Assembly (NCBI GenBank): GCA_964023275.1
Contig: OZ029919.1
Span: 8,575,202 to 8,639,201, forward strand
Reading direction: 5' to 3'
Origin: Norana najaformis
Taxonomy: Eukaryota > Annelida > Clitellata > Crassiclitellata > Hormogastridae
DNA length: 64,000 nt
Positions within the stretch are counted from its first letter, which is position 1; every line of letters starts with the position of its first letter. Positions 4,908 through 60,328 of the stretch are shown here, piece after piece. The translations under genes were made by a program, and so were the position numbers. The notes under the pieces are model-generated. The model ran no database searches, was not told where the DNA came from, and was given only the letters and a program-made list of their open reading frames with translations.

Positions 4908-7900
4908 TCAACGAATGCTATTACAAATGGCGATGTGACTATAACATTCACTTGAGGATTTAGAGTGAAAATCTGCACACTTCCAGCAAATATTATTTTT
5001 GCACCATTCACAGAAGACTCTATCACATCCATCAAATTTCTCAATGGCAATGTGGCATTTAGGGCAACGCTTTCTACTGGAACCATCTGCTTTCAGCCAG
5101 TCCGTCACACTCCAAGCTACATCACATGCCATTGTTCCATGAAACTTATTACCACATTCCAAACAGAATCTGCACTGGCACCAGAGACAGGCTTTCATCT
5201 TTGCCTGTTCAAAAACTGCACACACTCCACTGCATCTATGTTGTAGGCAAAGCCCAAAAGAAGCTGCATTCTCTCCTATGAAGCTCATCAGCACGTTTTG
5301 TAGTATCTTTCTGATGTCACAATACTGAACTACGCCACAGATGTACCTGAGTTCGGCTATGCTGAGAGCCTTGTCACACTTATTATTGGCACACTTTACT
5401 GGCAGATTTCGGTCATTCACGGACTGAATTACCAACTGAAGCACGCATTCCCTGCAGTATGCATGTCCACAAACACTTAACAAATAGCAGTCTTTGCTTG
5501 AGGTTTCTAAACTCTCCAAAAAACAGATTGAACACATTACCTCTGAGCTCAGACTTTTCTTGTCTAATGTAACATCTGCCTCCTGCAGGAGCATGGATTT
5601 CATTTCCTCTGAGTACCTGTTGAATACATCGGCTTTTGTTTCAAGCCAAAGTTCAGAATGGTCTTCAAATAAGAAGTGCTGTGAAATGTCACCTTTACGT
5701 TTCAGTTCATCGAGACTAGATCGCAGTTTGTGGTACAAAATCTTCAAAGCATCGGAATTAAAGCATGTCTGGTCAAAGTCAAACAAGTACCAGCCGAATC
5801 CACAGGAATTAGGTTTTTCTGCCAGCTGCTTCTTCAGAATGCTAGCTGAATGATTTTTATTACAAGAATCCCCATAGATGTAGACTGTTTGATGAAACTC
5901 CGGGAGGTGAATGCAAGTTTTGGTGAAATGCATCAAGAACTTTAGAAACTTTGTTCCATCATTGCTCAGCAGGTAGTGCAGTTGCAGGTTGTCAAAAGTG
6001 ACTTTGGCAGGTTGTAGGAAATCTTCCAGATTTTCTCTTAGTCTCTGCATCTGACAATTCTCTGTGGCTGTCACACTCACAAGCACCTGCAAGTTAATGT
6101 TCGAAGGATTCACAGGCGAAAACGGATCTTGTCTGATCCAGCTTTTGACAATATTCTTTTGCTGCATTCTGCCAAGCAATTCTTGCAATGGCTTCTCTAT
6201 AATCTGATGAAAATCCCGGGTCATCATGATGCGAATTGTTTTAAGATCTGTTGCCAATTTTGTTGTGTTTCTTAAGTAAACTGAGAAGTTAGATCTCGAT
6301 ATTCTTTCTATGCAACTGACTCCAGTTCTAGCAGCGTGCACGTTTGGAAAGCCAATTTTGAGTTCAAATAGGTTAGGACTTTCAGAATTTGCTTGTACCC
6401 AGATGGAAGTACTTTTCTCCTTTCCATCAGTTTTCAGTCCCACTTCTGCAAACATCCGAATAATACCATCAATGACTTTTGTTTTGGCATCTTCAGGAGA
6501 CATGAAACCATTTCCATTCTTTACATCTGTCATCTTATCTTGGATGAAGCATTGCAGATTTACTTCAACAGAACTGTCAAAAGCAACTATGTCACCACGC
6601 AAAATATTTGTCTGTTTAGTAATTTGAGGTTCAGTGTAGCATTCGTATATTACAGCATTTTCAGTGGCAGGTAATTGGTGGTAATTGCACAGGTTATCAA
6701 TCTTCTGTCTGTTTATGCAATTTCTGTTTTCTGTGTAGGTTGGAGAAATTTCTGCTGCTTCTGAAGAGTCTGAAGCATTGGTACATTGTCTTAATTGAAT
6801 CTCTCGAAGCTGTTTGTCGGAAAACCACCTACAACCAGTTATACCCATGCACTCTAGCCCTCGACCAATCCTCATTCGTAAAGGGCTGTGCACATTTGGG
6901 AAGGGAATCTCCAGTTCTTTACTTTCCAGTTCTACCTGAAGGCTTTTCAGTTCCTCTTCCAACACAGATTTTACTCTGTCACAGCCAACTTTGGGACACA
7001 TCATGCTCAGCTGTTTAAAGTCTCTGTCATACATGACTTTTACGACATATCCACAGATTGATTTAAGCTTTTCGCTAAATTTCTCTGATGATGCAAGAGA
7101 ACCCAGTTCAAAACTCATACTTTTTGTGGCAACAGGAACACAGAAAAACTGATCCACCATATCTCTTGGTGTCACATTAAGGTGTTTGGACAGAATGGAG
7201 GCTGCCAAGTCATCTCCAACACAAACAAGAAGATTCACCTCCTTTGGCAAATGGTCATTTTTTATGTTGTCGAGAGCAAAGACAAATCTTGGTGGTTCAT
7301 TTGTTAATCTGTAACAGGATTTTCTTCCAATAAGGCATGGAACTTTTGAAGAAATCTGGAGATATCCCAAGTCTTTGTGTCCTTGATATATGCACAGACG
7401 ATCGTACCATAGTTTTGCCATGATTTCTACCAGCTTCTCATGCACAAGCATTGCATCCTTGTTGAAGTTGAGTAAAGCTGGCTTCTTTTCATCTGATACC
7501 TGTGCAATGACCTCTGTATAGTGGTTGCACAAACGTTTATCAATCTCTTTAAATTTTATCTCTTTGAAGCCATTTTTCTGAAACCATGCCACCTGTTCAG
7601 AACTCTTTTTTCCGGACTTCGTGTGAAGTTTCATGCACCATCGAGTAACAGCATTCAGAACCGTCTGGATGTCTCCTAGTTCACTGAAATTTGCCGCTTT
7701 TGCGACTCCCGATTCAAAGACATCTGTGAGACTACCATCATCCAAGAAAACTGAAGTGACGAGTCCTTCAAGAAAGATATTCTTTTCAAGGCATTCCTCA
7801 AGAAACTTCTGCTTTTTCGGATAGAATTCTTGGTTTTGGGATTTTGAAAACGCTCCCGGTTTAGAGTTGTTCCTCAAATTGTTTTCTGAATCGATGTCTT

Positions 7901-8875
7901 TAGGCTGAAATTCTCTGACAACCTGGAAATGACAAATTGTACTTGGATTACTACAAGTGTAATATGTATTAGTTGGTGAGATTACCTCTTTCTATCACAC
8001 TTAACTGATTAGGATTAGCTTGCATTTACATCATAGGCTGTTTCCAGTCTCTTTCTTTCATTCATGTGGTCATTCTTATACAGGTTTGTGTACAGTTGTC
8101 TGAACTGGCATTAAAACAAACTCCCAAAAAACACCCCTTCAGTGTCAGTCAACTTGCATTTTGCTCCTTCATGCTCAAAACTGAAATTTTAAACTGTGTT
8201 ATCCCAAATCATCTCGTTCAACATTTCACAACTACCCATGGCACTGGTGGCAGATGCATTAAGTGCTTCCCACTAGATTATCACGCTGTCTGTCTAGGCA
8301 CATATTTCTACCTCCAACACTGATCAACTGATCTCACCAGATTGGCCTGCATCAAGTACTTGTGAAAACTGGTTTCTGTGAAATTTAAATGATACAATTA
8401 CAATACATTTAACAATACATTTAACAGGCCTACAGGCACGTTTACCCTGTTAGTGAAATAAATGCAACTGATGAATTAATATGAAATAGGGGACGACGAG
8501 GAAGATATCTGATCAAGAAGACAGAATTCAGAAATGTCTGAAAAGCTTTAGTTGAAGAGGTGTATGATATGCAGTGAGAATATGAGAAGTAGCATAACGT
8601 TTCTTTAGCGCTTTCAGTAACACCATAAAGGCGCTCATGACAACCTCACAAAGCGGGGAAATCTAGATTAGTCAGAAAATAAGAAGATAAGAAAGATATG
8701 GTGCACAGATCCACCAGGTGTACTGTTATCTCTTTGAAGTCACTAGCCACTGTACAACTGCGTGGATTTAAATGAATCACATAAATACATGTAACAACGA
8801 GTGTGCGATTATTACCTTATCATGCGCATCTTCGAACAGTTTCCACTTTGAATCTGTTTCTTCTGTTTCTCCCAT
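4908..8875 (-). CDS. RING-IBR-RING E3 ubiquitin ligase, tandem copy 1
   Basis: The gene has two coding exons: exon 1 at 8875-8816 (20 codons, starting MGETEETDSKWKLFE) and exon 2 at 7922-4908. The donor is AAG|GTAATA and the acceptor TTTCCAG|GTT, both in phase 0, giving about 1,024 residues. The long frame has no ATG near its 5' end (its first listed codon is TTG), so exon 1 supplies the start. The last 208 residues form a full RBR module. RING1 begins at residue 817 (CxxC, CGH, CxxC, Cx4C). IBR has CxxC-x4-C-x2-C-x4-H-x4-C. RING2 is CPKC...GC-x4-C-x2-C-x4-C-x2-C, with the expected thioester cysteine at about residue 986. RBR ligases pass ubiquitin from E2 to substrate through that cysteine. 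The first ~800 residues fit no family I can name; a short helical charged stretch lies near 338-358. Copies 1 and 3 are about 95% identical. Confidence 0.85.
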
Positions 8876-8964
8876 TCTGAACTTAAAAGCTCTTTAAATT
8901 GTGAAAGTCTGTTAGACGCGACCACTTAGTTAGTAAACGAACGTCAAAGTTAAGGGGAATAGTT

Positions 8965-8977
8965 GGTTTAAATAAGC
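8965..8977 (-). promoter_or_regulatory. TATA-like element upstream of RBR copy 1
   Basis: The minus strand reads GCTTATTTAAACC about 90-100 bp before the ATG. The block is unchanged in all three intact copies although nearby bases vary, so it is a candidate core promoter element. No start-site data support it. Confidence 0.35.
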
Positions 8978-9174
8978 AGAAATTAGTGTCGTATTGTGCA
9001 ATCGTTTGTGAAAACAGCGTCCATGACACCACATTGTGCAATCGTTTCACATTCTATTTCAATAGTTCTATGAGTATAGACATCATGAATATTCATGCTA
9101 TTGATACACCGACTTATTTATAAATGTTAATGGGAAGTACCCATTTCCACCAGTGACCATGTTACCTCAACCGT

Positions 9175-12100
9175 GCTTGTGTTTCAATGAATTAATCCGG
9201 TGAGATTCTTTATCACCGCTGCCCGTTTGAATGGGTGCCGCGGCATTTTAAGTATTTACGCATAATATGTTTGTTTAACTACCTTTTTATTTTTATATTT
9301 CTGCCTTCTCTGGTTATTTTTCATCCAACTTTGAGTACCACACTTATAACACCAGATCAAATGGTAATTATCACAGAAGTTATGCCCGTACAAACACTCG
9401 TCTATTTTCTATTAAATGCGCTGGTTCTTCTTTATGAAACAATTTATCTCATGACATTCGTATTCTGCCCAATATAAAAAATTTTAAACATTACATAAGC
9501 GCATATTTGAATCAATTCATTAAATGAATTCACGTGAATTAATTCATACTGTTAGTTACGTTTTTTGTTCTTTTTACAAAGGTTCTGTTTCCAAAGTCCA
9601 GTTAGACTATAGGCCTGTTAAGTTGATTATTTGTCATTTCAAATAGCATTCCATGTGAGGTAGGCGTCCCTAACAAGCGGAACATGGTTCTTTCTGGGTC
9701 TGCCTGTTGTATTCCACATGAATTTTTTATGTAACATGTTAATGCTGTTGACTTTTTGTGCAACAATAAAAATGATGTGAAAAGTAATTTTCCGCAGCGT
9801 CGTTAACTCTGAATCTGAGGCCCGTATGAATGGTCGGTGGTGGCCAAGAAGAAGACATTCAAGCCAGAGTAGCGAGTGGACAAGTCGTGGTAGAGTTATA
9901 CGAACGCAACAGTTGGTGATTACACGCAGACTTAGAACTGGATACGCCCCCAAATTTGTGTAAGTGCTACGTCTATATCTTGATAGATGTACATAGTCTA
10001 CGCTTGTGAATAAGCTGGTGCCCTGTGCGTAGCGTCTAAGTAGCCTATAGAAATTTTGAGTTTACGATGCACGTTTTTCCATAACGCGACTGTATGGCCT
10101 CTGCCCTGCGCAATTTCAATGAATTTATCGGGGCGAGATCCTATACCACCACTACTTGTATGAATGCATGATATGGGTCCCACACCATTTAAGGTCTTCG
10201 TGTACCGACCATGCTTGCTCGAGATTTCAATCTCTGAAATCCAGCCACGAATCCCACGATCGACATTTAGAACCCACATTCCACCAACTTAGGCGCCTTC
10301 GCGTACGTTTTAGCCAAACTATAGGTAATCACGACTAGCAGCATGTTGGTAGACAAAACGAATATCCTCTGACTGCCACGTTCAATGTGCCCACAATAGG
10401 CACATGCATGAATAGCTGGCCACCAGTTTCCACCAGCGGCATAATACGGGCCTGCTCTGGGGCACCATTATTATTATCATCATCATTATCATCATCATCA
10501 CCACCACCGTCATAGTCATCATCATTACAAAAAGGGGACGAAAGTGTGTCTAAAACTGAAGAAGAAAGTTCACCTTACAAATGAAGGTAATTCGTTGCTT
10601 TCAGACTGACATGATTGCAAAAGAATTTAATAGTTTGCTGGTAAATATTAAATGAATTATAGGCCTACTAATAGAATTAATAAATAATTTATTATTGATA
10701 AGATATACATTCTAATAATTTAAAAGTGCCTTGATCAAGATTATGACAGAAACTATAGTTACTTTGATTATTATTGCAATTAATAAGCTTTATTGGCTTT
10801 GGAAGATATTTGCATAATTTGTTTAGTCTTCGGTGACTTCATTTCACTCACTGTACATTATTTAATGTTCTTGTATGGATCTTTAATCACTTTGCAAATA
10901 TATTTATTACTACATCTATGTAGTATTCTTATAGTGGCCAAGCAACCAGAATTGCACGTGTGATGGTCATGTGACCAGCATCGCCTATAATACTAGCCAT
11001 ATTATGACAGTCAGTGACTAGTTACGCATGTGGTATAAAACTGATGTTATGGTGCTTCTGGTAATAAATATGTGCATGACTAAACTTTAATGGTATTCTC
11101 AAAATGGTTTAAGGCCTTTCAGTCTGGTTTCTTTAAACTTCTGAGGCAATGACTGTAATAGAATTTGTTGTAATCAGAAACTGTGTAATTTGTTAAGCAT
11201 CCACCATGAGAAGCAGCCTATTCGTATAGATATGATACACTATGACTAAGTGAGGGATAATGTAAGGTTTTTACAAAACTCATGTGGTGTAGGTATGTCG
11301 CTCCTCATATGTCACTGTCATTAAGCTGGTTCTCGTTAGTACTTGTTGTACCTTGAATCTTTGTCAGGACAGCTGACAATTCTTAAGTTTGAATACATTA
11401 CCTAACATTGTTAGAAGACAGTTACTGAAAATCAGTGGAGTAAATGATCTAGTGGGAAAAGCAGGACCAAATTTAAAGTAAGTCCACTTAAAAGACATTT
11501 TTAGTATGCTTCCAAAGCTTTGCGCTTGTTCTTAATTACTTTGGGATATTTTTGGTTTGGTAAAATTATTACAATTGATGACGCAATGCGCTGTAGGTCC
11601 GAGTGGTGCATTATTTGTGGTGTACTGTACTTCATCCAATAAAATTATTCCAACGGGGACAACACAATGAGAAATATGGATAATAAAGGGAAGTTCTTAA
11701 ACGCAATACGCAAACAAGTCGAAATTCATGTAATCAGGTGACAAATTCAAAAATAATTTATCTTTAATAGCACAGAAACTAATTCAGGTACTCAAGAACA
11801 ACTAAGCCAAAAACACCAGATCATGTTACAGGACTAGGAGACAAAACAAAGAGCTCTGTTCAGACTTCAGAAATAGGAAAAACACAACATAGCCGATACC
11901 CTGTTCTAAATTCTTATTGTGCATAAATCTTAAATGGAATGTCTAACAGCAGACATTAGTGTTCCTAGAAGGCTGTTTGATTGGTAAAAATCGCAGCCAC
12001 TTACACATGCGTCTACAGATGAGCATGTTATTTGATTATCAACAGAACAGTCTGGCCACAGCCCTGTACTTCACTTACAAACTTTCTGCAGTATGAATTC

Positions 12101-12654
12101 ATCTGACGTGACTATTCAGACTTCAATGCATCACTACGTGCCTTCACAGTTTAGTTAGTGACTCGTTTATCGACATTAACTAGTAATTTAATTGGTGATA
12201 TAAGAAAGATTTATGTGCTGCCTGTTAACCTCCACTTAAAAGTAATCAGTTGCTTGCATAAATTACATGATCTAAAATGATTCCTAGTCCATGCTCTTCC
12301 ATATACTCACTAGAGGTCTTTTCCTGGCAAACATACATATGGATGACAAATGCAAACCAATGAAAACTGATAGACAGCAATGCTACTACATCAGTTCTCT
12401 GACAGTACAGATCTAAAGTATTCTAAAAACTATTACAGTGTCACCATATTAACCCGAATTTGAGATTTCCTTGAAGCCTGCATAATTCAAATGAAGCCTA
12501 GAAAATCCATTACAGTTTATTTCTGGGAACTCTACGAGAAGCAAGAGTAGCAGCATTTGACAGCCTTGCAATATGCCATACAGCAGTGTATTGCAGAAAG
12601 CAGAGGTAAGGTTAGCTCCAAATAGTTCTGCCAAATGTGCTATTTTTCGTCAAC
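9175..12654. repeat. Near-identical 3.4 kb segment, array copy at left
   Basis: This segment matches the sequence exactly 11,509 bp to the right without any length change. Every stretch I compared line by line was identical except one C/T near 9242. Even the ATC-rich microsatellite has the same length and interruptions. Identity drops at both ends, at about 9174 and at the stop codon of the truncated gene. Confidence 0.8.
12516..12521 (-). promoter_or_regulatory. AATAAA hexamer behind truncated RBR copy
   Basis: Conserved polyadenylation hexamer in the same place as in copies 1 and 3. Confidence 0.4.
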
Positions 12655-13135
12655 AAATGCTATTACAAATGGCGATGTGACTATAACATTCACTTGAGGA
12701 TTTAGAGTGAAAGTCTGCACACTTCCAGCAAATATTATTTTTGCACCATTCACAGAAGACTCTATCACATCCATCAAATTTCTCAATGGCAATGTGGCAT
12801 TTAGGGCAACGCTTTCTACTGGAACCATCTTCTTTCAGCCAGTCCGTCACACTCCAGGCTGCATCACATGCTACTGTTCCATGAAACTTATTACCACATT
12901 CCAAACAGAATCTGCACTGGCACCAGAGACAGGCTTTCATCTTTGCCTGTTCTAAAACTGCACACACTCCACCGCATCTCTGTTGTATGCAATGCCCAAA
13001 AGAAGCTGCATTCTCCCCTTTGAAGCTCATCAGCACGTTTTGTAGTATCTTTCTGATGTCACAATAATGAACTACGCCACAGATGTACCTCAGTTCGGCT
13101 ACGTTGAGAGCCTTGTCACACTTTTCGTTGGCACA
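12650..13135 (-). pseudogene. Truncated RBR ligase copy (end of RING1, IBR and RING2 only)
   Basis: Homology starts inside the last zinc pair of RING1 (residues CANEKCDKAL) and runs without interruption to the natural stop. The upstream 850 or so residues, exon 1 and the promoter are gone. The break falls at GTTGGCACAC, where the intact genes continue with TTTACTGGC but this copy runs into an ACACAGATACATAG repeat. IBR and RING2 zinc ligands and the RING2 cysteine remain. An open frame continues into the microsatellite and starts at a repeat-encoded ATG. That is most likely accidental, so I call a truncated pseudogene. Expression from a new promoter cannot be excluded from sequence alone. Confidence 0.8.
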
Positions 13136-13390
13136 CAGACACACAGATACACACATACATAGACACACAGATACATAGACACACAGATACATAGACACAC
13201 AGATACATAGACACACAGATACATAGACACACAGATACATAGACACACAGATATATAGACACACAGATACAAAGATACACAGTCACAAATTACATATGGA
13301 CACAGATATATTGACGTGCAAAGACATTGACACACAGATACACTGACACACATATATATAAAGACACACACATACACTGCCAAATGCATA
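13136..13390. repeat. 16-bp microsatellite (ACACACAGATACATAG)n
   Basis: About eight near-perfect 16-bp units up to roughly 13,270 are followed by degenerate ACACA/ATACA-rich sequence. The tract abuts the broken RBR gene. On the minus strand it encodes a low-complexity cysteine, valine and tyrosine-rich frame with no meaning as protein. Confidence 0.85.
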
Positions 13391-15069
13391 GAGACAGACA
13401 TACACACAAACAAGCAGAGACGCAAACGTATGTACGCGTAGACCCTCTTTGCTGTTTAGCGATTTTATTTAATTATATTAATTTGCTGATTAACTCTTGC
13501 TAATCCTCGTTTAATTGGCCGTTTAATTGGCTAAGTCGGTAAAACTGCATCTCACAAAACCCTGCAAAGCTTGTTTTATTTATGGCTTTACAATGACCCA
13601 TTACACATCGGATGTTGCGTCTTTAATGCTTTGCTGCGGAGTTTAGAGGTGCTTAACTTTCTCCATCTTTGTCTCATCTGTCTTCAGAACAAATCCGCAT
13701 CTAGCTATCTTATGTTTGATATGCTACCGGGCCGAATGCATGTGGGCCTTCCGCGCCCTGCTAGATATTTATACAAGTTATTTGAATGAGATATTTTTCT
13801 TGAACTATTTTCCGGATGTTTATTCAACATGAATTCTAAACTGCAATGCTGGTATACTTGTTGACTTCGCGGATGAGAAAGAATACATCGCTTATCTGTA
13901 GTTTCTCATATTCCGACAACCGCGTTAACGTGTAAAGACTCAGAAATAAATTGTTGGCTACTTGCATGACTTAGGCCCTAATATCATCACGGTCATTGCG
14001 TTTTCTGTCCATGGTTGATCGTCTTTGACCATCTTTCCCATATCCACGTGAAACTTGAACTCCTTAGATTGTGTTGTGCCGTACTATAATTGTCAATTTA
14101 TACAGCGCCAAATTTATACACAATCAATCAATCTATCAATCAATCAAACAAACTAATAATTGCTCCCAGCAAGAGAACTCCGAGGAAATGGGTAAATTTT
14201 AAGGCAACGAGTTGCAACAGTCCAGCCTCCCTATCCACCTGAGCTCAAATGACAAGTGGAAGACTCTGTCCTTTCTCAGCCTTTATCTTTTCAGTGGTCG
14301 TGTGTCGTCAGGTCGGAGCGGCCTTTGAGGAGTTGTCTTTTAAAGGCGCTATACAAACGCGCGCACACGATTACGATCCGTCCCTCCCATCTAAATGGAC
14401 TAAGTGGACCACCGTATAAATGTATAAATATGGACCACAGACCACAGATACATGCATCCTAGTCTTTTATGAAGGCCTAAATCGATTATTATAAACCAGA
14501 GGCCTACATAACTGACAGCATCAGCTACTCCCTCTTGGATGGATATACAAACTAATAATTGCTCCCCAGCATTTTCCAGCTCCTGGAATTTTATATCCAT
14601 ATGCGTATACATATACACATAGATACACATATATACATAAGCATTTTCATTATACATATACATACAGTACATCCAACCAATTAACATGTCGGATGTTAAT
14701 ACCGGTATGTGTGTCATTTTGATTTCTTAATTGTTTTTAGTCTATATAAGTTGATACTTGTGCCCTCATGTGGCCTCAGTCAGCGTATAACTGAACCTCT
14801 ACAGCGCCCTTTTTCGGCCTCGGCCGTACTACGGTGATCTATAAATCGTCGTCTTCTTATTTTTATTACTATTACTACTATAAGTGTTCAAAGTTTAAAG
14901 TTTACTATGAGTATTTAAAGTTTACTACTACTACTACCACCACCACCACTACCACTACTACCACTACCACCAGTACTACTACTACTACTACTATTACTCA
15001 CATAACCAGGGTCAACGCCCAGACTGAGGTTCGGAGATTGGGAAATACTTTTGGAGCGTAAACTTATCT
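13391..15069. other. Unique insert between truncated copy and next array unit
   Basis: This sequence has no counterpart in the other units. It contains TTTATACAGCGCC and CTCTACAGCGCCC motifs typical of the dispersed repeats in this window (near 14,095 and 14,800), a GGCGCTATACAAACG...GATTACGATC tail near 14,345-14,380, an imperfect TACATA-rich stretch near 14,590-14,670, and a TAC/CAC triplet run at about 14,925-14,998. No gene is seen. Confidence 0.5.
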
Positions 15070-15281
15070 AAAAACTAATTTTTACTTATAGGTCTGTCTG
15101 CGTAAAGAAATTTCTCGACCTCTATGTCTCCCTCAGCCTAGACTCTGCCCCCACGCACACCTTTACTACTATTTCTCCTGTCCGCAATTTAGGTGTGATT
15201 TTCGACCAAACCCTCAGCTTATCCGATCATATCACTCATCTTTCCCACTCGTGCTTCATGCATATCCGTGACCTATAAGTC
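15070..15281 (+). mobile_element. L2/CR1-like LINE fragment (reverse-transcriptase C-terminal part)
   Basis: Translation gives NLGVIFDQTLSLSDHI and a following SCFMHIRDL, matching the block after the palm domain in L2/CR1 reverse transcriptases and the longer copy at 58800-59743. It is cut at both ends. It lies where the replaced part of the second array unit rejoins homologous array sequence near 15,282. Confidence 0.65.
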
Positions 15282-16372
15282 CATTTACAAGCATTTTTAG
15301 AATGCTTAGAAAGCTTTGCAGCTTGTACTTAATTACTTTGGAATATTTTTAATCTGGTAAAATGATTACGAATGATGACGTAATGCACTGTATGTCACTA
15401 TAGGTCTTGGTGGAGTACTACTAGTGGTGCTTTGAACTTGATGCAGTGAAACTATTCTAACTGGGACAATATAACGATACACATAGATAACAAAGAGACG
15501 TATGTAGGCCTATAGCCAGACAAGCTGTAACGAGCAATAAGCAAACAAATAGAAATACATGTAATCAGGTCACAAATTCAAAAATAATTTATCTTTAAAA
15601 GCATTGGAACTAATTCAGGTATTCAAGAACAACTAAGCCAAAAAGCCCAGATCATGTTACACATCTAGGAGACAAAACATAACTTAAAGAACTTGCTTTG
15701 TGCTGAACTCAGGACTAGGAAAAACATAACATCAACGGGTTTAAGTTCTAAATTCTTATCATTCATTACCTTAAACAGAATGTCTGTAACAGCAGAAACT
15801 AGTGTTCCTAGAATGTTGTTTGAAAGGTGGTGAAAAATCAGTCAATTTTACAGATGCTAATCAGCATGTGTCATTTGATTATCAACAGAACAATCTTCTT
15901 GTAGGCCACAGTCCTGTAATTCATCATAAACAAACATTATGGAGTATGAACTTATCTGCTGAATATTCCGACCATAATGCTTATGAGTACCCACGTTCAC
16001 AGCGAAATTATTGACTTGTCTATCAACATTAGCTACTAACTTAATTACTTATAAATGAAACATTTACATAGTGCCTGTTAACCTACACTTAAAAATAATC
16101 AGTTGCCTACTTGAATTATGTGATGTCAATCAATGCCTAGTTCTTGCTTTGCTGCATCTTCACTAGAGGTCTTTCCTGGCAAACACATACATGGATGGCA
16201 AATGCAAACCCAAAAAAAAACTCAGCAGTTCATTTGTGGCAACTGTATGACCAGGGAAAGTTGCAGCACTTGGCAGCGTTGCAATATGTCATACATTCAT
16301 GTGTTGTCGAATGTAGAGGTCGTCTCCAAATAGTTCCTCTGTCTGATGTGCTACTTTTGCTACTCGACACTA
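15282..16372. other. 3' flank of RBR copy 2 (diverged array sequence)
   Basis: It is homologous to 3700-4900 and 11490-12640 but clearly more diverged than those two are from each other. The AATAAA hexamer found behind the other copies reads AATGAA here (near 16229-16234). No gene is seen. Confidence 0.55.
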
Positions 16373-19300
16373 TTAGCCACGGCGATTGCAAATGATCACG
16401 TGATTGTGACACAACTTTGAGGATTTTGAGTGAAAAATTTCACATTTCCAGCAAATGTATTCCTTGCACCACAAACAGAAGATAACGTTACATCCACCAT
16501 TTTTCTCAATTGCAATCTCACAGTTGGGGCAGCGGTGTATATTGTAACCATAATACTCTATCAGCGAGTCCTTTAGTCTCCACAATATACTGCATGCCTT
16601 TGTCCCATGAAACTTCCTGTTGCACTGCAAACAGAATCTGCTCTGGCACCAAAGACAAGATTTCATATTTTCCTGTTTATAAACAATACACAATGCACCA
16701 CATTTCCGTCGTAGGCAAAGCCCAAAAGAAGCTGCATTCTCCCATATGAAGTTCTTAAGCACGTTTTGAAGTATCTGTCTGATGTCACAATATTGAACTA
16801 CGCCACAGATGTACCTCAGTTCGGCTACGCTGAGAGCCTTGTCACACTTTTCGTTGGCACACTTTACTGGCAGATTTCGGTCATTCACGGACTGAATTAT
16901 CAAGCGAAGTACACATTCCCTGCAGTATGCATGTCCACACACACTTAACAAATAGCAGTCTTTGCTTGAGGTTTCTAAACTCTCCAAAAAACAGATTGAA
17001 CACATTACCTCTGAGCTCAGACTTTTCTTGTCTAATGTAATATCCGCCTCCTGCAGAAGTGTTGCTTTTATTTCCTCTGAGTACCTATTGAAAACTTCGG
17101 CTTTTGTTTCAAGCCAAAGTTCAGGACGGTCTTCAAATAAGAAGTACTGTAAAATGTCACCATTATGTATCAGTTCACTGAGACGAGATCGCAGTTTGTG
17201 GTACAAAATCTTCAAAGCATCGGAATTAAAGCATGTCTGGTCAAAGTCAAACGAGTACCAGCCTAATCCACAGGAATTAGGTATTTCTGCCAGCTGCTTC
17301 TTCAGAATGCTAGCTGAATGATTTTTATTACAAGAATCCCCATAGATGTAGACTGTTTGATGAAACTCCGGGAGGTGAATGCAAGTTTTGGTGAAATGCA
17401 TCAAGAACTTTAGAAACTTCGTTCCATCATTGCTCAGCAGGTAGTGCAGTTGCAGGTTGTCAAAAGTGACTTTGGCAGGTTGTAGGAAATCTTCCAGATT
17501 TTCTCTTAGCCTCTGCATGTGACAATTCTCTGTGGCTGTCACACTCACAAGCACCTGCAAGTTAATGTTCGAAGGATTCGCAGGCGAAAACGGATCTTGT
17601 CTGATCCAGCTTTTGACAATATTCTTTTGCTGCATTCTGCCAAGCAATTCTTGCAATGGCTTCTCTATAATCTGATGAAAATCCCGGGTCATCATGATGC
17701 GAATTGTTTTAAGATCTGTTGCCAATTTTGTTGTGTTTCTTAAACAAACCGAGAAGTTAGATCTCGATATTCTTTCTATGCAACTGACTCCAGTTCTAGC
17801 AGCATACACGTTTGGAAAGCCAATTTTGAGTTCAAATTGGTTAGGACTTTCAGAATTAGTTTGCACCCACATGCCAGTGCTGTTCTCCCTTCCATCAGTT
17901 TTCAGTCCCACTTCTGCAAACATCCGAATAATACCATCAATGACTTTTGTTTTGGCATCTTCAGGAGACATGAAATCATTTCCGTTCTTTACATCCATCA
18001 TTTTATCTTGGATGAAACATTGCAGATTTACTTCCACTAAACTGTCAAAAGCAACAATGTCACCACGCAAGATATTTGTCTGTTTAGTAATTAGAGGTTC
18101 AGCGTAGCATTCGTATACTACAGCATTTTCAGTGGCAGGTAATTGACGGTAGCTGCACAGGTTATCAGCCTTCTGTCTGTTTCTGCAATTTCTGTTTTCT
18201 ATGTAGGTTGGAAAAATTTCTGCTGCTTCTGAAGAGTCTGAAGCATTGGCACATTTTCTCAACTGAATCTCTCGAAGCTGTTCATCACAAAACCACTGAT
18301 AACCGGTTATACCCATGAACTCTAGCCCTCCTCCAATCCTCATTCGTAAAGGGCTGTGCACATCTGGGAAGGGAATCTCCAGTTCTTTACTTTCCAGTTC
18401 TTCCTGAAGGCTTTTCAGTTCCTCTTCCAACACAGATTTTACTCTGTCACAGCCAACTTTGGGACACATCATGCTCAGCTGTTTAAGGTCTCTGTCATAC
18501 ATGACTTTTACGACATATCCACAGATTGATTTAAGCTTTTCGCTAAATTTCTCTGATGATGCAAGAGAACCCAGTTCAAAACTCACACTTTTTGTGGCAA
18601 CAGGAACACAGAAAAACTGATCCACCATATCTCTTGGTGTCACATTAAGGTGTTTGGACAGAACAGAGGCTGCCAAGTCATCTCCAACACAAACAAGTAG
18701 ATTCACCTCCTTTGGCAAATGGTCATTTTTTATGTTGTCGAGAGCAAAGACAAATCTTGGTGGTTCATTTGTTAATCTGTAACAGGATTTTCTTCCAATA
18801 AGGCATGGAGCTTTTGAAGAAATCTGGAGATATCCCAAGTCTTTGTGTCCTTGATATATGCACAGACGATCGTACCATAGTTTTGCCATGATTTCTACCA
18901 GCTTCTCATGCACAAGCATTGCATCCTTGTTGAAGTTGAGTAAAGCTGGCTTTTTTTCATCTGATACCTGTGCAATGACCTCTGTGTAGTGGTTGCGCAA
19001 ACGTTTATCAATCTCTTTAAATTTTATCTCTTTGAAGCCATTTTTCTGAAACCATGCCACCTGTTGAGAACACTTTTTTCCGGACTTCGTGTGAAGTTTC
19101 ATGCACCATTGAGTAACAGCATTCAGAACCGTCTGGATGTCTCCTAGTTCACTGAAATTTGCCGCTTTTGCAACTCCCGATTCAAAGACATCTGTGAGAC
19201 TACCATCATCCAAGAAAACTGAAGTGACGAGTCCTTCAAGAAAGATATTCTTTTCAAGGCATTCCTCAAGAAACTTCTGCTTTTTCGGATAGAATTCTTG

Positions 19301-20359
19301 GTTTTGGGATTTTGAAAACGCTCCCGGTTTAGAGTTGTTCCTCAAATTGTTTTCTGAATCAATGTCTTTAGGCTGAAATTCTCTGACAACCTGGAAATGA
19401 CAAATTGTACTTGGATTACTACAAGTGTAATATGTATTAGTTGGTGAGATTACCTCTTTCTACCACACTTAACTGGTTAGGATTAGCTTGCATTTACATC
19501 ATTGGCTCTTTCTTTCATTCATGTGGTCATTCTTTTACAGGTTTGTGTACAGATGTCTGAACTAGCATTATAACAAACTCCCAAAAACACCCCTTCAGTG
19601 TCAGTCAACTTGCATTTTGCTCCTTCATGCTCAAAACTGAAATTTTAAACTGTGTTATCCCAAATCATCTCATTCAACATTTCACAACTACCCATGGCAC
19701 TGGTGGCAGATGCATTAAGTGCTTCCCACCAGATTATCATGCTGTCTGTCTAGGCACATATTTCTACCTCCAACACTGATCAACTGACCTCACCAGATTG
19801 GCCTGCATCAAGTACTTGTGAAAACTGGTTTCTGTGAAATTTAGATGATACAATTACAATACATTTAACAATACATTTAACAGGCCTACATGTAATATTT
19901 GCATGCACTGGCACGTTTACCCTGTAAGTGAAATAAATGCAACTGATGAATTAATATGAAATAGGGGACGACGAGGAAGATATCTGATCAAGAGATCAAG
20001 AAGACAGAATTCAGAAATGCCTGAAAAGCTTTAGTTGAAGAGGTGTGTGATATGCAGTGAGAATATGAGAAGTAGCATAACGTTTCTATAGCGCTTTCTG
20101 TAACACCACGAAGGCGCTCATGACAACATAACAAAGCGGGGAAATCTAGATTAGTCAGAAGGCGAGAAGATAAGAAAGATATGGTGCACAGATCCACCAG
20201 GTGTATACTGTTCTCTTTTTGAAGTCACTAGCCGCTGAACAACTGCGTAGATTAAATGAATCACATAAATACATGTAATAACGAGTGTGCGATTATTACC
20301 TTATTAGGCACATCTTTGAACAGTTTCCACTTTGAATCTGTTTCTTCTGTTTCTCCCAT
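16373..20359 (-). CDS. RING-IBR-RING E3 ubiquitin ligase, tandem copy 2 (diverged catalytic half)
   Basis: Exon 1 lies at 20359-20300 (MGETEETDSKWKLF, ending VPNK) and exon 2 at 19390-16373. Splice sites and phase are as in copy 1, and the product is about 1,025 residues. The N-terminal two thirds is nearly identical to copy 1. Divergence is patchy: a window around residues 370-500, the segment before RING1 (about 750-800), and above all the last ~125 residues, where only about half the positions agree with copies 1 and 3. All RING1, IBR and RING2 zinc ligands and the RING2 active-site cysteine (IEKNGGC) are kept. The change therefore looks like functional divergence or recombination with a more distant relative, not decay. 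The usual AATAAA after the stop is lost. Confidence 0.85.
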
Positions 20360-20448
20360 TCTGAACTTAACAGCTCTTTAAATTGTGAAAGTCTGTTAGA
20401 CGCGACCACTTAGTCACTAAAAGTACGCCAAATTTATGGGGAATAGTT

Positions 20449-20461
20449 GGTTTAAATAAGC
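20449..20461 (-). promoter_or_regulatory. TATA-like element upstream of RBR copy 2
   Basis: Same conserved GCTTATTTAAACC block as before copy 1, about 90 bp upstream of the ATG. Confidence 0.35.
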
Positions 20462-20683
20462 AGAAATGATGTCGTATTGTGCAATCGTTTGTGAAAACAG
20501 CGTCCATGACACCACATTGTGCAATCGTTTCACATTCTATTTCAGTATTTCTATGAGTATAGACTCATGAATATTCATGTTATTGATACATTGACTTATT
20601 TATAAATGTTAATGGGAAGTACCCATTTCCACCAGTGACCTTGTTACCATATATACTATATAAATAGATGTTACTTCAACCGT

Positions 20684-23600
20684 GCTTGTGTTTCAATGAA
20701 TTAATCCGGTGAGATTCTTTATCACCGCTGCCCGTTTGAATGGGTGCCGCGGTATTTTAAGTATTTACGCATAATATGTTTGTTTAACTACCTTTTTATT
20801 TTTATATTTCTGCCTTCTCTGGTTATTTTTCATCCAACTTTGAGTACCACACTTATAACACCAGATCAAATGGTAATTATCACAGAAGTTATGCCCGTAC
20901 AAACACTCGTCTATTTTCTATTAAATGCGCTGGTTCTTCTTTATGAAACAATTTATCTCATGACATTCGTATTCTGCCCAATATAAAAAATTTTAAACAT
21001 TACATAAGCGCATATTTGAATCAATTCATTAAATGAATTCACGTGAATTAATTCATACTGTTAGTTACGTTTTTTGTTCTTTTTACAAAGGTTCTGTTTC
21101 CAAAGTCCAGTTAGACTATAGGCCTGTTAAGTTGATTATTTGTCATTTCAAATAGCATTCCATGTGAGGTAGGCGTCCCTAACAAGCGGAACATGGTTCT
21201 TTCTGGGTCTGCCTGTTGTATTCCACATGAATTTTTTATGTAACATGTTAATGCTGTTGACTTTTTGTGCAACAATAAAAATGATGTGAAAAGTAATTTT
21301 CCGCAGCGTCGTTAACTCTGAATCTGAGGCCCGTATGAATGGTCGGTGGTGGCCAAGAAGAAGACATTCAAGCCAGAGTAGCGAGTGGACAAGTCGTGGT
21401 AGAGTTATACGAACGCAACAGTTGGTGATTACACGCAGACTTAGAACTGGATACGCCCCCAAATTTGTGTAAGTGCTACGTCTATATCTTGATAGATGTA
21501 CATAGTCTACGCTTGTGAATAAGCTGGTGCCCTGTGCGTAGCGTCTAAGTAGCCTATAGAAATTTTGAGTTTACGATGCACGTTTTTCCATAACGCGACT
21601 GTATGGCCTCTGCCCTGCGCAATTTCAATGAATTTATCGGGGCGAGATCCTATACCACCACTACTTGTATGAATGCATGATATGGGTCCCACACCATTTA
21701 AGGTCTTCGTGTACCGACCATGCTTGCTCGAGATTTCAATCTCTGAAATCCAGCCACGAATCCCACGATCGACATTTAGAACCCACATTCCACCAACTTA
21801 GGCGCCTTCGCGTACGTTTTAGCCAAACTATAGGTAATCACGACTAGCAGCATGTTGGTAGACAAAACGAATATCCTCTGACTGCCACGTTCAATGTGCC
21901 CACAATAGGCACATGCATGAATAGCTGGCCACCAGTTTCCACCAGCGGCATAATACGGGCCTGCTCTGGGGCACCATTATTATTATCATCATCATTATCA
22001 TCATCATCACCACCACCGTCATAGTCATCATCATTACAAAAAGGGGACGAAAGTGTGTCTAAAACTGAAGAAGAAAGTTCACCTTACAAATGAAGGTAAT
22101 TCGTTGCTTTCAGACTGACATGATTGCAAAAGAATTTAATAGTTTGCTGGTAAATATTAAATGAATTATAGGCCTACTAATAGAATTAATAAATAATTTA
22201 TTATTGATAAGATATACATTCTAATAATTTAAAAGTGCCTTGATCAAGATTATGACAGAAACTATAGTTACTTTGATTATTATTGCAATTAATAAGCTTT
22301 ATTGGCTTTGGAAGATATTTGCATAATTTGTTTAGTCTTCGGTGACTTCATTTCACTCACTGTACATTATTTAATGTTCTTGTATGGATCTTTAATCACT
22401 TTGCAAATATATTTATTACTACATCTATGTAGTATTCTTATAGTGGCCAAGCAACCAGAATTGCACGTGTGATGGTCATGTGACCAGCATCGCCTATAAT
22501 ACTAGCCATATTATGACAGTCAGTGACTAGTTACGCATGTGGTATAAAACTGATGTTATGGTGCTTCTGGTAATAAATATGTGCATGACTAAACTTTAAT
22601 GGTATTCTCAAAATGGTTTAAGGCCTTTCAGTCTGGTTTCTTTAAACTTCTGAGGCAATGACTGTAATAGAATTTGTTGTAATCAGAAACTGTGTAATTT
22701 GTTAAGCATCCACCATGAGAAGCAGCCTATTCGTATAGATATGATACACTATGACTAAGTGAGGGATAATGTAAGGTTTTTACAAAACTCATGTGGTGTA
22801 GGTATGTCGCTCCTCATATGTCACTGTCATTAAGCTGGTTCTCGTTAGTACTTGTTGTACCTTGAATCTTTGTCAGGACAGCTGACAATTCTTAAGTTTG
22901 AATACATTACCTAACATTGTTAGAAGACAGTTACTGAAAATCAGTGGAGTAAATGATCTAGTGGGAAAAGCAGGACCAAATTTAAAGTAAGTCCACTTAA
23001 AAGACATTTTTAGTATGCTTCCAAAGCTTTGCGCTTGTTCTTAATTACTTTGGGATATTTTTGGTTTGGTAAAATTATTACAATTGATGACGCAATGCGC
23101 TGTAGGTCCGAGTGGTGCATTATTTGTGGTGTACTGTACTTCATCCAATAAAATTATTCCAACGGGGACAACACAATGAGAAATATGGATAATAAAGGGA
23201 AGTTCTTAAACGCAATACGCAAACAAGTCGAAATTCATGTAATCAGGTGACAAATTCAAAAATAATTTATCTTTAATAGCACAGAAACTAATTCAGGTAC
23301 TCAAGAACAACTAAGCCAAAAACACCAGATCATGTTACAGGACTAGGAGACAAAACAAAGAGCTCTGTTCAGACTTCAGAAATAGGAAAAACACAACATA
23401 GCCGATACCCTGTTCTAAATTCTTATTGTGCATAAATCTTAAATGGAATGTCTAACAGCAGACATTAGTGTTCCTAGAAGGCTGTTTGATTGGTAAAAAT
23501 CGCAGCCACTTACACATGCGTCTACAGATGAGCATGTTATTTGATTATCAACAGAACAGTCTGGCCACAGCCCTGTACTTCACTTACAAACTTTCTGCAG

Positions 23601-24163
23601 TATGAATTCATCTGACGTGACTATTCAGACTTCAATGCATCACTACGTGCCTTCACAGTTTAGTTAGTGACTCGTTTATCGACATTAACTAGTAATTTAA
23701 TTGGTGATATAAGAAAGATTTATGTGCTGCCTGTTAACCTCCACTTAAAAGTAATCAGTTGCTTGCATAAATTACATGATCTAAAATGATTCCTAGTCCA
23801 TGCTCTTCCATATACTCACTAGAGGTCTTTTCCTGGCAAACATACATATGGATGACAAATGCAAACCAATGAAAACTGATAGACAGCAATGCTACTACAT
23901 CAGTTCTCTGACAGTACAGATCTAAAGTATTCTAAAAACTATTACAGTGTCACCATATTAACCCGAATTTGAGATTTCCTTGAAGCCTGCATAATTCAAA
24001 TGAAGCCTAGAAAATCCATTACAGTTTATTTCTGGGAACTCTACGAGAAGCAAGAGTAGCAGCATTTGACAGCCTTGCAATATGCCATACAGCAGTGTAT
24101 TGCAGAAAGCAGAGGTAAGGTTAGCTCCAAATAGTTCTGCCAAATGTGCTATTTTTCGTCAAC
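20684..24163. repeat. Near-identical 3.4 kb segment, array copy at right
   Basis: Partner of 9175-12654 at a constant offset of 11,509 bp. It ends at the stop codon of RBR copy 3. Confidence 0.8.
24025..24030 (-). promoter_or_regulatory. Putative polyadenylation signal, RBR copy 3
   Basis: AATAAA on the minus strand, about 130 bp past the stop of copy 3. Confidence 0.5.
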
Positions 24164-27100
24164 GAATGCTATTACAAATGGCGATGTGACTATAACATTC
24201 ACTTGAGGATTTAGAGTGAAAATCTGCACACTTCCAGCAAATATAATTTTTGCACCATTCACAGAAGACTCTATCACATCCATCAAATTTCTCAATGGCA
24301 ATGTGGCATTTAGGGCAACGCTTTCTACTGGAACCATCTTCTTTCAGCCAGTCCGTCACACTCCAAGCTACATCACATGCCATTGTTCCATGAAACTTAT
24401 TACCACATTCCAAACAGAATCTGCGCTGGCACCAGAGACAGGCTTTCATCTTTGCCTGTTCAAAAACTGCACACACTCCACCGCATCTCTGTTGTAGGCA
24501 AAACCCAAAAGAAGCTGCATTCTCCCCTATGAAGCTCATCAGCACGTTTTGTAGTATCTTTCTGAAGTCACAATATTGAACTACGCCACAGATGTACCTG
24601 AGTTCAGCTACGCTGAGAGCCTTGTCACACTTTTCGTTGGCACACTTTACTGGCAGATTTCGGTCATTCACGGACTGAATTACCAACTGAAGCACACATT
24701 CCCTGCAGTATGCATGTCCACAAACACTTAACAAATAGCAGTCTTTGCTTGAGGTTTCTAAACTCTCCAAAAAACAGATTGAACACATTACCTCTGAGCT
24801 CAGACTTTTCTTGTCTAATGTAACATCCGCCTCCTGCAGGAGCATGGATTTCATTTCCTCTGAGTACCTGTTGAATACATCGGCTTTTGTTTCAAGCCAA
24901 AGTTCAGAATGGTCTTCAAATAAGAAGTGCTGTGAAATGTCACCTTTACGTTTCAGTTCATCGAGACTAGATCGCAGTTTGTGGTACAAAATCTTCAAAG
25001 CATCGGAATTAAAGCATGTCTGGTCAAAGTCAAACAAGTACCAGCCGAATCCACAGGAATTAGGTTTTTCTGCCAGCTGCTTCTTCAGAATGCTAGCTGA
25101 ATGATTTTTATTACAAGAATCCCCATAGATGTAGACTGTTTGATGAAACTCCGGGAGGTGAATGCAAGTTTTGGTGAAATGCATCAAGAACTTTAGAAAC
25201 TTTGTTCCATCATTGCTCAGCAGGTAGTGCAGTTGCAGGTTGTCAAAAGTGACTTTGGCAGGTTGTAGGAAATCTTCCAGATTTTCTCTTAGCCTCTGCA
25301 TGTGACAATTCTCTGTGGCTGTCACACTCACAAGCACCTGCAAGTTAATGTTCGAAGGATTCACAGGCGAAAACGGATCTTGTCTGATCCAGCTTTTGAC
25401 AATATTCTTTTGCTGAATTCTGCCAAGCAATTCTTGCAATGGCTTCTCTATAATCTGATGAAAATCCCGGGTCATCATGATGCGAATTGTTTTAAGATCT
25501 GTTGCCAATTTTGTTGTGTTTCTTAAGTAAACTGAGAAGTTAGATCTCGATATTCTTTCTATGCAACTGACTCCAGTTCTACCAGCATACACGTTTGGAA
25601 AGCCAATTTTGAGTTCAAATTGGTTAGGACTTTCAGAATTTGCTTGTACCCAGATGGAAGTACTTTTCTCCTTTCCATCAGTTTTCAGTCCCACTTCTGC
25701 AAACATCCGAATAATACCATCAATGACTTTTGTTTTGGCATCTTCAGGAGACATGAAATCATTTCCGTTCTTTACATCCATCATTTTATCTTGGATGAAA
25801 CATTGCAGATTTACTTCCACTGAACTGTCAAAAGCAACTATGTCACCACGCAAGATATTTGTCTGTTTAGTAATTTGAGGTTCAGTGTAGCATTCGTATA
25901 TTACAGCATTTTCAGCGGCAGGTAATTGGTGGTAATTGCACAGGTTATCAATCTTCTGTCTGTTTATGCAATTTCTGTTTTCTATGTAGGTTGGAGAAAT
26001 TTCTGCTGCTTCTGAAGAGTCTGAAGCATTGGTACATTGTCTTAATTGAATCTCTCGAAGCTGTTTGTCGGAAAACCACCTAAAACCAGTTATACCCATG
26101 CACTCTAGCCCTCGACCAATCTGCATTCGTAAAGGGCTGTGCACATTTGGGAAGGAAATCTCCAGTTCTTTACTTTCCAGTTCTGCCTGAAGGCTTTTCA
26201 GTTCCTCTTCCAACACAGATTTTACTCTGTCACAGCCAACCTTGGGACACATCATGCTCAGCTGTTTAAAGTCTCTGTCATACACGATTTTTACGACATG
26301 TCCGCAGATTGATTTAAGCCTTTCGCTAAATTTCTCTGATGATGCAAGAGAACCCAGTTCAAAACTCACACTTTTTGTGGCAACAGGAACACAGAAAAAC
26401 TGATCCACCATATCTCTTGGTGTCACATTATGGTGTTTGGACAGAATGGAGGCTGCCAAGTCATCTCCAACACAAACAAGTAGATTCACCTCCTTTGGCA
26501 AATGGTCATTTTTTATGTTGTCAAGAGCGAGGACAAATCTTGGTGGTTCATTTGTTAATCTGTAACAGGATTTTCTTCCAATAAAACCTGGAGCTTTTGA
26601 AGAAACCTGGAGATACCCCAAGTCTTTGTGACCTTGATATATGCAGAGACGATTGTACCATAGTTTTGCCATGATTTCTACCAGCTTATTATGCACAAGC
26701 ATTGCATCCTTGTTGAAGTTGAGTAAAGCTGGCTTCTTTTCATCTGATACCTGTGCAATGACCTCTGTGTAGTGGTTGCGCAAACGTTTATCAATCTCTT
26801 TAAATTTTATTTCTTTGAAGCCATTTTTCTGAAACCATGCTACCTGTTGAGAACACTTTTTTCCAGACTTTGTGTGAAGTTTCATGCACCATCGAGTAAC
26901 AGCATTCAGAACCGTTTGGATGTCTCCTAGTTCACTGAAATTTGCCGCTTTTGCAACTCCCGATTCAAAGACATCTGTGAGACTACCATCATCCAAGAAA
27001 ACTGAAGTGACGAGTCCTTCAAGAAAGATATTCTTTTCAAGGCATTCCTTAAGAAACTTCTGCTTTTTCGGATAGAATTCTTGGTTTTGAGATATTAAAG

Positions 27101-28203
27101 ACGCTCCCGGTTTAGAGTTGTTCCTCAAATTGTTTTCTGAATCAATGTCTTTAGGCTGAAATTCTCTGACAACCTGGAAATGACAAATTGTACTTGGATT
27201 ACTACAAGTAGAATGTATATTAGTTGGTGAGATTACCCCTTTCTACCTTTCTTAACTGATTAGGATTAGCTTGTATTTACATCATAGGCTGTTCCCAGTC
27301 TCTTTCTTTCATTCATGTGGTCATTCTTATATAGGTTTGTCTACAGTTGTCTGAACAAACTCCCAAAAACACTCTTCCAACTTTCAATATCAGTCAACTT
27401 GAATTTGCTCCTTATCTGGAACACTTCGATCCAAGCTCAAAACTGAAATTTGAAACTGCGTTATCCCAATTCTACTCATCCACCTTTTTGCAAATGTCCA
27501 TGGCACAGATATCAGGTGCATTAAATGTTGCCCACCTTATAACTGCACTGTCTCCCTAGGTAGATTTTCTTACCTCCAACCTGACACTGATCAACTGACC
27601 TCACCAATTGGTTCTTACAGATTTGCAGCATTAAGTACTTGTGAAAACTGGTTTCTGTGATGTAAAGCTTGTGTAACACTTAGAAATATAGATGATACAA
27701 TTACAATACATTTAACAATACATTTAACAGGCCTACATGTAATACTTCTATGCATTGGCACATTTACTCTGTAAGTGATAAAAATGCAATTGATGAATTA
27801 ATACGAAATAGGGGACGACGAGGAAGATATCTCATGAAGATTTCAAGAAGACAGAAGTTCAGAAATGTCGTAAAAGATTTAGTTGAAGAGGTGTAGGCCT
27901 ACGATATGCAGTGAGAATATGAGAAGTCGCATAACGTTTCTATAGCGCTTTCTGTAACACCACGAAGGCGCTCATGACAACCTCACAAAAGGGGGAAATC
28001 TAGATTAGTCAGAAGGTGAGAAGATAAGAAAGATATGATGCACAGATCCACCAGGTGTACTGGTCTCTTTTTGAATCACTGAACAACTGCGTGGATTAAA
28101 TGAATCACACAAATACATGTAATAACGAGTGTGCGATTATTACCTTATTAGGCGCATCTTCGAACAGTTTCCACTTTGAATCTGTTTCTTCTGTTTCCCC
28201 CAT
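24159..28203 (-). CDS. RING-IBR-RING E3 ubiquitin ligase, tandem copy 3
   Basis: Exon 1 lies at 28203-28144 (ending APNK|GTAATA) and exon 2 at 27173-24159, giving about 1,024 residues. The C-terminal 208 residues hold intact RING1 (CSIC...CGHAYCREC...Cx4C), IBR and RING2 (CPKC...DGC-x4-C-x2-C). The protein is closest to copy 1 overall, with identical stretches around residues 750-810. It differs from copies 1 and 2 near the start of exon 2 (GASLISQN instead of GAFSKSQN). This is the outermost array member. Its 5' end faces the ACTL6A gene about 2.1 kb away, so the two could share a divergent promoter region. The substrate and the function of the N-terminal part are unknown. Confidence 0.85.
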
Positions 28204-43382: not shown

Positions 43383-44166
43383 AAAACTTTCTGAGGTTAG
43401 CTGGATTGATTTCTTCACTGTTTACCGATGACGCTTTTTAAAATAAAATAACTAAATCAATCTCAAGATTTTTAAATTCCGAGGGATCATAATTATGTAC
43501 CTGAGGTGGGTGGGGAATCTCATTCTAGTTGTTCGGAGGCGTGGCAGGTCGAAATCCGAGCTCGGTCTATTTATATAATATATGTGACTCGGCCGAAGAG
43601 GTTAGTTATCCGAACGGAAACTCATCGGATTCGTTTAATTTTTAATGTGGAGAAAAATTTCAATCGCAGTTGCTGCGGTTTGCGTTATAACAGCGTTTGT
43701 CTGTAACGAGTTGTATTTTTCAGACGTTACATGCAGGTTCGAGATGTAATTTAAACAGTAACATAAGCCAAGTAGTGATTTACTATTTTATATCAGTGAG
43801 TCAGCGATTCCGTGTTTATGGGCGATATTTGAACGCTCACATAACCACAGCGTCGAAGAGAAGGGGACGATTTTTCATGTTTAGGTTGAAAATTCATTTC
43901 ACATTTGGCGTCCAACTGTGAAGGTTCACACCAACGACCTGTAGAAATTAATGATCCGACAAATTTTAAAAGTATAAGGACAGGAGAAAGAGGAGGACAA
44001 GAATAAGGCCAACCCAGAAAGGCAGCACCGAGGTTTTAATACCATAAAATCGCCTCTGTGCTAACTATTGGAATATTTCACATTCAGAACAGATGTAGTC
44101 ACAATAAAAAATTATAAAAACAGGATTATAATATATTATTACACTCATAAATAAACGTTTTTTAGA

Positions 44167-50988
<6,822 letters not shown>

Positions 50989-60097: not shown

Positions 60098-60328
60098 AAT
60101 AATTAATAACAATAATTAGAAAACTTCTAATGCGCCGGTGTCTAATGCACAAGGCATCAAACCATGGCGCACCAAAACCAAGCCGTAATCAGGTCAACAT
60201 CCAGAAGGTCAGTCCACAAAACAGAGGGGCAGCCTACGGCGAATAAGCAATTAGAAAAAGGTAAGTTTTAAGATGAGAACGAAATGACAGAAACGACTGA
60301 GCAGAACGAACAGACAGAGGGGGGTGGT
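60098..60328 (-). mobile_element. SINE-like insertion upstream of HTATIP2 copy B
   Basis: A 231-bp insertion is flanked by TGGAATAT (60090-60097 and 60329-60336). Unit 1 has that octamer only once, near 44070. It contains TTCTAATGCGCCGGTGTCTAATGC-type sequence related to the ATATAGCGCC repeats. Confidence 0.75.

Follow-up and report, generated by a model that had tools for sequence, protein, structure and literature searches.

Helicase-RBR ligases form an ancient subfamily of RING-between-RING (RBR) ubiquitin ligases whose function is little known, and its Arabidopsis members go by the names DEAH11 and DEAH12, which Pfam also uses. We analysed a stretch of 64,000 nucleotides from the annelid Norana najaformis (G000:C7:8575202-8639201, hereafter the window), in which three intact genes (g1, g2 and g3) lie in tandem, each encoding a predicted protein with a C-terminal RBR module. 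This family is probably a helicase-less form, either a derivative or a sister, of the Helicase or ‘Plant I’ DEAH11/12-type RBR ubiquitin ligases, and its products are most likely RNA-binding E3 ligases that would work without a motor.

The Helicase/Plant I subfamily is known from unikonts and bikonts, plants and animals included, and has been repeatedly lost in animals, according to its description (Marin 2010, PMC2904391). A clam study mentions a gene named DEAH12 that serves as a marker (PMC8765752). Among the papers listed in literature searches, no title or abstract opening describes helicase-less copies, although similar proteins may well carry annotations elsewhere. The window proteins share with the subfamily a collinear order of putative OB-like region, KH domain and C-terminal RING1-IBR-RING2, and those with a class A catalytic half (defined below) also share the CYxH tail past RING2. 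They differ in having no detected RecA/DEAH core, in a third KH and RBD/RRM that are not recognised, in their length (1024-1025 amino acids versus frames of 2135-2539), in their single 5′ intron and in lacking a histidine two residues after the catalytic cysteine (C+2). Judged by the defining helicase core, the window genes fall outside the subfamily as relatives that lack it.

Similarity to helicase-RBR proteins of the same genome

When the genome (608 Mb, 17 contigs) was searched with the g3 protein, at least 11 matches came up: all three window genes, another intact copy beyond the window (g4), a fragment inside the array, two full-length and one truncated helicase-RBR, and three weak RBR pieces. 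The full-length helicase-RBR proteins are encoded in single frames on C6 (P0004, 2539 amino acids) and C3 (P0005, 2135 amino acids), and the truncated one is also on C3. A putative plant DEAH12 fragment, typed as DEAH11-type by Pfam and aligning with g3 residues 615-997 (E 1.7e-25), was the initial lead, after which P0004 and P0005 took over as main evidence. Both have DEAD, Helicase_C, RRM_1, KH_DEAH11 and IBR above the Pfam cut-offs, while OB_NTP_bind is above cut-off in P0005 and reaches 28.9 bits against a cut-off of 29.5 in P0004. No relatives were found in viral contigs, prokaryote genome contigs or phages, and none of the 14 stretches that fitted a peptide pattern in one of these searches was confirmed.

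The strongest similarity covers the KH and RBR end. By blastp, with E-values computed for a two-protein target, g3 residues 615-1003 align with P0004 (E 1.4e-44) and residues 610-998 with P0005 (E 7.5e-31); residues 614-1002 score 99.9% in profile comparison with helicase-RBR. A second, collinear stretch joins residues 35-215 to P0005 1098-1276 (E 7.7e-4 for g3, 1.65e-4 for g2 and 3e-3 for g1), and the N-terminal piece alone scores 72.8% in profile comparison with the helicase accessory/OB region (E 3.2e-5 for one pair), the match ending in the OB region. In shuffle tests of g3 segments, whose borders were picked by the analyst, z-scores against P0004/P0005 were 44.5/33.2 for the RBR, 14.7/5.3 for the second KH (KH2), 4.8/3.8 for the OB segment and 2.6/4.6 for the winged-helix/HA2 segment, as against 0.4/-0.3 for RecA1 and 1.1/0.8 for RecA2. 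The KH2 score against P0004 was reached by none of 1000 shuffles, and the same segment gave z 8.5 against the plant DEAH12 fragment.

Before the RBR, Pfam lists KH_DEAH11_2nd in all three window proteins (E 0.0018-0.0075, 16.4-18.4 bits), under the cut-off of 27; the genuine helicase-RBR P0004 also scores just 17.9 bits, and P0005 is unlisted for this model at E 0.01. A still weaker listing, QueG_DUF1730, occurs in two window proteins. The sequence-only reading had guessed at a KH-like fold ahead of RING1, as in plant helicase-RBR proteins, and this gains support: the peptide it quoted (exon 2 residues 676-695) falls within the KH_DEAH11_2nd match at 648-700, a segment that also aligns with the same-genome helicase-RBR at the z of 14.7 given above.

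As for the core itself, Pfam lists no helicase domain in the window proteins and gives no OB_NTP_bind match. No DExH or motif VI pattern occurs in window frames of at least 50 amino acids, a scan that a core split over short exons would escape, and the nine loose Walker-A-like matches in the window all lie past 34.9 kb. RBD/RRM domains were likewise not recognised, with z between -1.3 and 0.5 across the segments tested against P0004, P0005 and the plant DEAH12 fragment. None of the three window proteins matched NCBIfam, and profile searches of two N-terminal pieces against the PDB gave a best E of 1.9 for one and nothing for the other.

Several results weigh against reading the family as a helicase-less helicase-RBR. 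P0004 matches residues 35-215 at just E 0.33-0.60, and the segment after the OB region resembles P0005 alone (z 6.0, against 0.2 for P0004). Against P0004/P0005, the first KH (z 0.0/0.7), the RBD-RRM segment (-1.3/-1.2) and the middle segment (-0.7/0.5) show no similarity, and residues from about 340 to 600 match nothing in profile searches or segment shuffles. The third KH (PF24471, KH_DEAH11, the last before RING1), at 91 and 74 bits in P0004 and P0005, is unlisted in the window proteins, though HMMER's filtering discards most hits weaker than E 0.1; its segment gives z 1.8/2.0 against the two helicase-RBR proteins and 0.0 against the plant DEAH12 fragment. Residues 130-620 taken as one stretch align with the plant DEAH12 fragment at chance level (z 1.0; 301 of 2000 shuffles), and hhalign of the N-terminal pair with it reaches just 25.8%. 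AlphaFold models of residues 30-425 and 420-800, made from three near-identical rows, were unusable, with a mean predicted local distance difference test (pLDDT) of 33 and 39. Foldseek matches of the 420-800 model were discarded, their query template-modelling (TM) scores being about 0.1-0.2.

Taken at the level of sequence comparison, the N-terminal region is partly assignable: both ends of the protein appear to follow the helicase-RBR plan with the RecA core undetected, the case being stronger for KH2-RBR than for the N-terminal end. The earlier statement that the roughly 800 residues before the RBR match no known RBR class thus holds for the middle, residues 340-600, but not for the KH end and probably not for the N-terminal end, where the described Helicase subfamily is matched, more weakly at the latter.

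The RBR module, its placement and its catalytic residues

The zinc ligand patterns of RING1, IBR and RING2 and the catalytic cysteine of RING2 are complete in all three window copies, and the same ligands and cysteine are readable in the g4 alignment. The best PDB match of the RBR is ARIH1 (E 4.9e-10), and the module aligns with those of the Ariadne proteins ARIH1 and ARIH2. The frame ends 22 residues past the CWKC of RING2, however, and therefore leaves no room for an Ariadne domain, which the window protein lacks. Its raw RBR score to ARIH1 is also below those to P0004 and P0005, the ranking being P0004 > P0005 > plant DEAH12 fragment > ARIH1 in all four intact copies (325, 267, 211 and 196 for g3).

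Placement within the RBR family bears on an alternative that is possible but doubtful, namely that the array represents a helicase-less line which split off early within the helicase-RBR family and did not arise recently from an animal helicase-RBR. A tree of RBR modules alone, built from eight sequences of 191-198 residues and thus too small to settle placement, puts the family nearer ARIH1 with a FastTree support of 0.963, a result that tells against a derivation from helicase-RBR proteins. Rooted on ARIH1, the best tree leaves the window genes outside a group of P0004, P0005 and the plant DEAH12 fragment, as an ancient branch would predict. Yet grouping with the animal helicase-RBRs was not rejected in the approximately unbiased (AU) test (p 0.30 versus 0.70), the tree has long branches, and the raw RBR scores are highest to P0004.

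In class A the catalytic cysteine is Cys966 in exon 2 numbering, or Cys986 when exon 1 is counted, and in class B it lies one residue later. At C+2, where P0004, P0005 and ARIH1 have histidine, g1, g3 and the fragment have arginine and g2 and g4 have valine. The catalytic histidine, which is not universal among RBRs, is thus absent from all four intact copies and the fragment. This absence would suit inactive or regulatory decoys that bind RNA or E2 ubiquitin-conjugating enzymes while the RBR no longer transfers ubiquitin, a reading we hold unlikely: the catalytic cysteine and zinc ligand patterns are retained in all three window copies and readable in g4, and the overall ratio of nonsynonymous to synonymous differences (pN/pS) is below 1. 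Moreover, loss of the C+2 histidine is no proof of inactivity, because the RING2 cysteine is essential while other residues of the triad are not fully conserved, and HOIL-1, with a tryptophan (Trp462) at this position, is active (PMC9834252). HOIL-1 is proposed to use a C-terminal histidine, His510, and has a Zn2/Cys6 cluster, neither of which is shown for the window proteins.

Array structure, IBR-RING2 classes and neighbouring features

Features of the array are collected in Table 1. On the minus strand, open frames of 1027, 1028 and 1027 codons span 4908-7991, 16373-19459 and 24159-27242. Exon 1 comprises 60 nucleotides (20 codons) followed by GTAATA, exon 2 opens after a TTTCCAG acceptor that is the same in all three window copies, and the two exons together predict proteins of 1024, 1025 and 1024 amino acids. 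Upstream of the ATG, in-frame stops lie no more than 40 codons away in each window copy. Frames, donor, acceptor and coordinates thus bear out the initial description of three intact genes sharing a 20-residue first exon and a second exon of about 3 kb. Exon 2 proteins of the window copies are 88-96% identical.

Beyond the initial gene list are a 3′ fragment inside the array and g4, on the same contig at C7:8678840-8681839, about 40 kb past the window edge and about 76 kb from g3. Its protein is 86% identical to the g3 query and its exon 1 match is 96% over 50 nucleotides. Four intact copies, none with an in-frame stop, therefore lie within about 102 kb.

Table 1. Features of the RBR array; positions refer to the window
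Feature	Position	Strand	
g1 exon 2 (1004 codons + stop), class A IBR-RING2	4908..7922	-	
g1 exon 1 (MGETEETDSKWKLFEDAHDK)	8816..8875	-	
3410-bp block with an exact match at 20754-24163 (offset 11509)	9245..12654	.	
3′ fragment of class A copy (IBR-RING2), without 5′ part; RING2 reads GCDRVFC	12656..13135	-	
Minisatellite, 16-bp unit, 9.4 copies, at the fragment's broken edge	13132..13282	.	
g2 exon 2 (1005 codons + stop), class B IBR-RING2	16373..19390	-	
g2 exon 1	20300..20359	-	
g3 exon 2 (1004 codons + stop), class A IBR-RING2	24159..27173	-	
RING1-IBR-RING2, g3 exon 2 residues 797-996; catalytic Cys966, C+2 = Arg	24186..24785	-	
KH domain (KH_DEAH11_2nd, under Pfam cut-off), g3 exon 2 residues 648-700	25074..25232	-	
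Putative helicase C-terminal accessory-like part (winged-helix/HA2-like, OB-like), g3 exon 2 residues 35-215, without RecA core	26529..27071	-	
g3 exon 1	28144..28203	-	

The copies combine a near-uniform body with two distinct catalytic halves. In 75-codon windows, DNA identity across codons 76-825 stays at 91-100% whichever two of the four copies are compared. At codons 901-975, by contrast, g1/g3 (class A) and g2/g4 (class B) are 99% identical within classes and 72-73% between them. Codons 1-75 of g4 diverge too (85%). Across codons 901-1000 the synonymous sites are divergent as well, with dS 0.72 and dN 0.28-0.29, and the divergence between classes runs on into the 3′ flank of g2 at 73-84%, dropping to 51-59% farther out. 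Such a patchwork fits two old copies that have exchanged sequence by gene conversion or unequal crossing-over, and positive selection would not be needed to account for it.

With codons carrying several changes split approximately, pN/pS is 0.34 for g1/g3 (whole exon 2), 0.47 for g1/g2 and 0.52 for g2/g3 (both over the first 790 codons), each below 1 (Fisher p 1e-5, 8e-4 and 1.5e-3, respectively). The arms-race role proposed from local amplification and patchy divergence is not supported: the divergent tract differs at synonymous sites, where dS exceeds dN, it extends into the flank, and overall pN/pS is below 1, so that reading was set aside. On the other side, dN equals or exceeds dS in some 100-codon windows, such as 501-600 in g1/g3 and 701-800 in g2/g3, and local selection may act there. 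An immune role is possible.

The 3410-bp block found identical at two sites could reflect very recent exchange, by duplication or conversion, or else a duplicate made in assembly. The block speaks for an array inflated as a whole by assembly error, with haplotypes placed in tandem, yet this is improbable, since divergence between copies reaches about 31% in tracts, their flanks are different, and g4 shares a contig with g3 at a distance of about 76 kb.

Other features of the window lie beside the array. Actin Pfam matches occur in plus-strand frames at 31375-31722 and 37036-37392 (model positions 2-30 and 210-290), which are probably exons of one actin-related gene, presumably ACTL6A/BAF53-like. 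A non-LTR (long terminal repeat) retroelement at 47485-50333 (plus strand) encodes an Exo_endo_phos endonuclease and an RVT_1 reverse transcriptase in two frames, and a 617-bp piece at 32128-32742 (minus strand) is a partial copy, 95.6% identical. A second duplication, outside the RBR array, relates 44068-47378 to 60328-63641 (96.3% identity over 3.3 kb).

Elsewhere in the genome, P0004 (L009 1086-8705) and P0005 (L010 966-7373) each contain a stretch of repeats in the N-terminal direction, by eye with GLDEANKSRA-like and HDTKTKDDVCANHDIKTM-like repeats. The truncated third helicase-RBR frame (L042 669-6659, 1996 amino acids) ends within RING2 about 15 kb from P0005, to which it is very similar by eye, and looks like a recent truncated duplicate of it. 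Among 33 genome matches to IBR_1 (E 0.001), which do not include the window family itself, 13 cluster within 0.4 Mb at G000:C11:7412427-7814474 (L011-L021) in frames of 88-318 amino acids. This cluster is another local RBR-type expansion; as candidate members of the family its 13 loci were rejected, none being matched by P0001 at E 1e-3.

Proposed mechanism and significance

RNA binding is predicted from KH and OB homology only. On that basis, the KH/OB body would bind RNA or a ribonucleoprotein but not unwind it, RING1 would recruit the ubiquitin-loaded E2 (E2~Ub), and ubiquitin would move first to the RING2 cysteine and from there to a substrate kept at or close to the RNA. Since class A has arginine and class B valine in place of the C+2 histidine, the final transfer probably differs from that of the parkin/HOIP type; it would be slower, or use another residue, or have a different acceptor. 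The body would be kept uniform by gene conversion together with unequal crossing-over, while the two catalytic halves persist. The fullest version of this proposal, a motorless RNA-binding ligase family derived from an animal helicase-RBR, with a homogenised body and two non-canonical catalytic halves (C+2 Arg/Val) possibly serving a non-lysine or altered ubiquitin acceptor, is speculative and has little chance of being right in full. DTX3L offers an analogy in manner of working only: as described in PMC11460948, this E3 has RRM/KH-like folds in its N-terminal part and binds single-stranded RNA and DNA, but its catalysis is of the RING-DTC type, not RBR, and its minimal fragment for ubiquitination of nucleic acid is RING-DTC without the KH-like domains.

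We give very little credence to the proposal of a new RBR class with a novel N-terminal fold, unrelated to known subfamilies: although residues of about 340-600 match nothing and Pfam gives just a sub-threshold KH before the RBR, the protein lines up collinearly with helicase-RBRs of its own genome over 35-215 and 610-1003, which places it beside a described RBR subfamily. The refuting condition set for a new class, a confident match of the N-terminal part to such a subfamily, is thereby largely satisfied, the middle apart. The enzyme kind is a known one of which the family is an unusual variant, the unusual features being the lost RecA core, the arginine or valine at C+2 and two old IBR-RING2 classes on a near-uniform body. 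The reading as a new RBR class is thereby corrected. If the helicase-less interpretation is true, motorless copies beside full-length ones in one genome would allow the roles of an RNA-binding body and RBR to be probed without unwinding, and the same natural set could show whether the catalytic histidine is needed.

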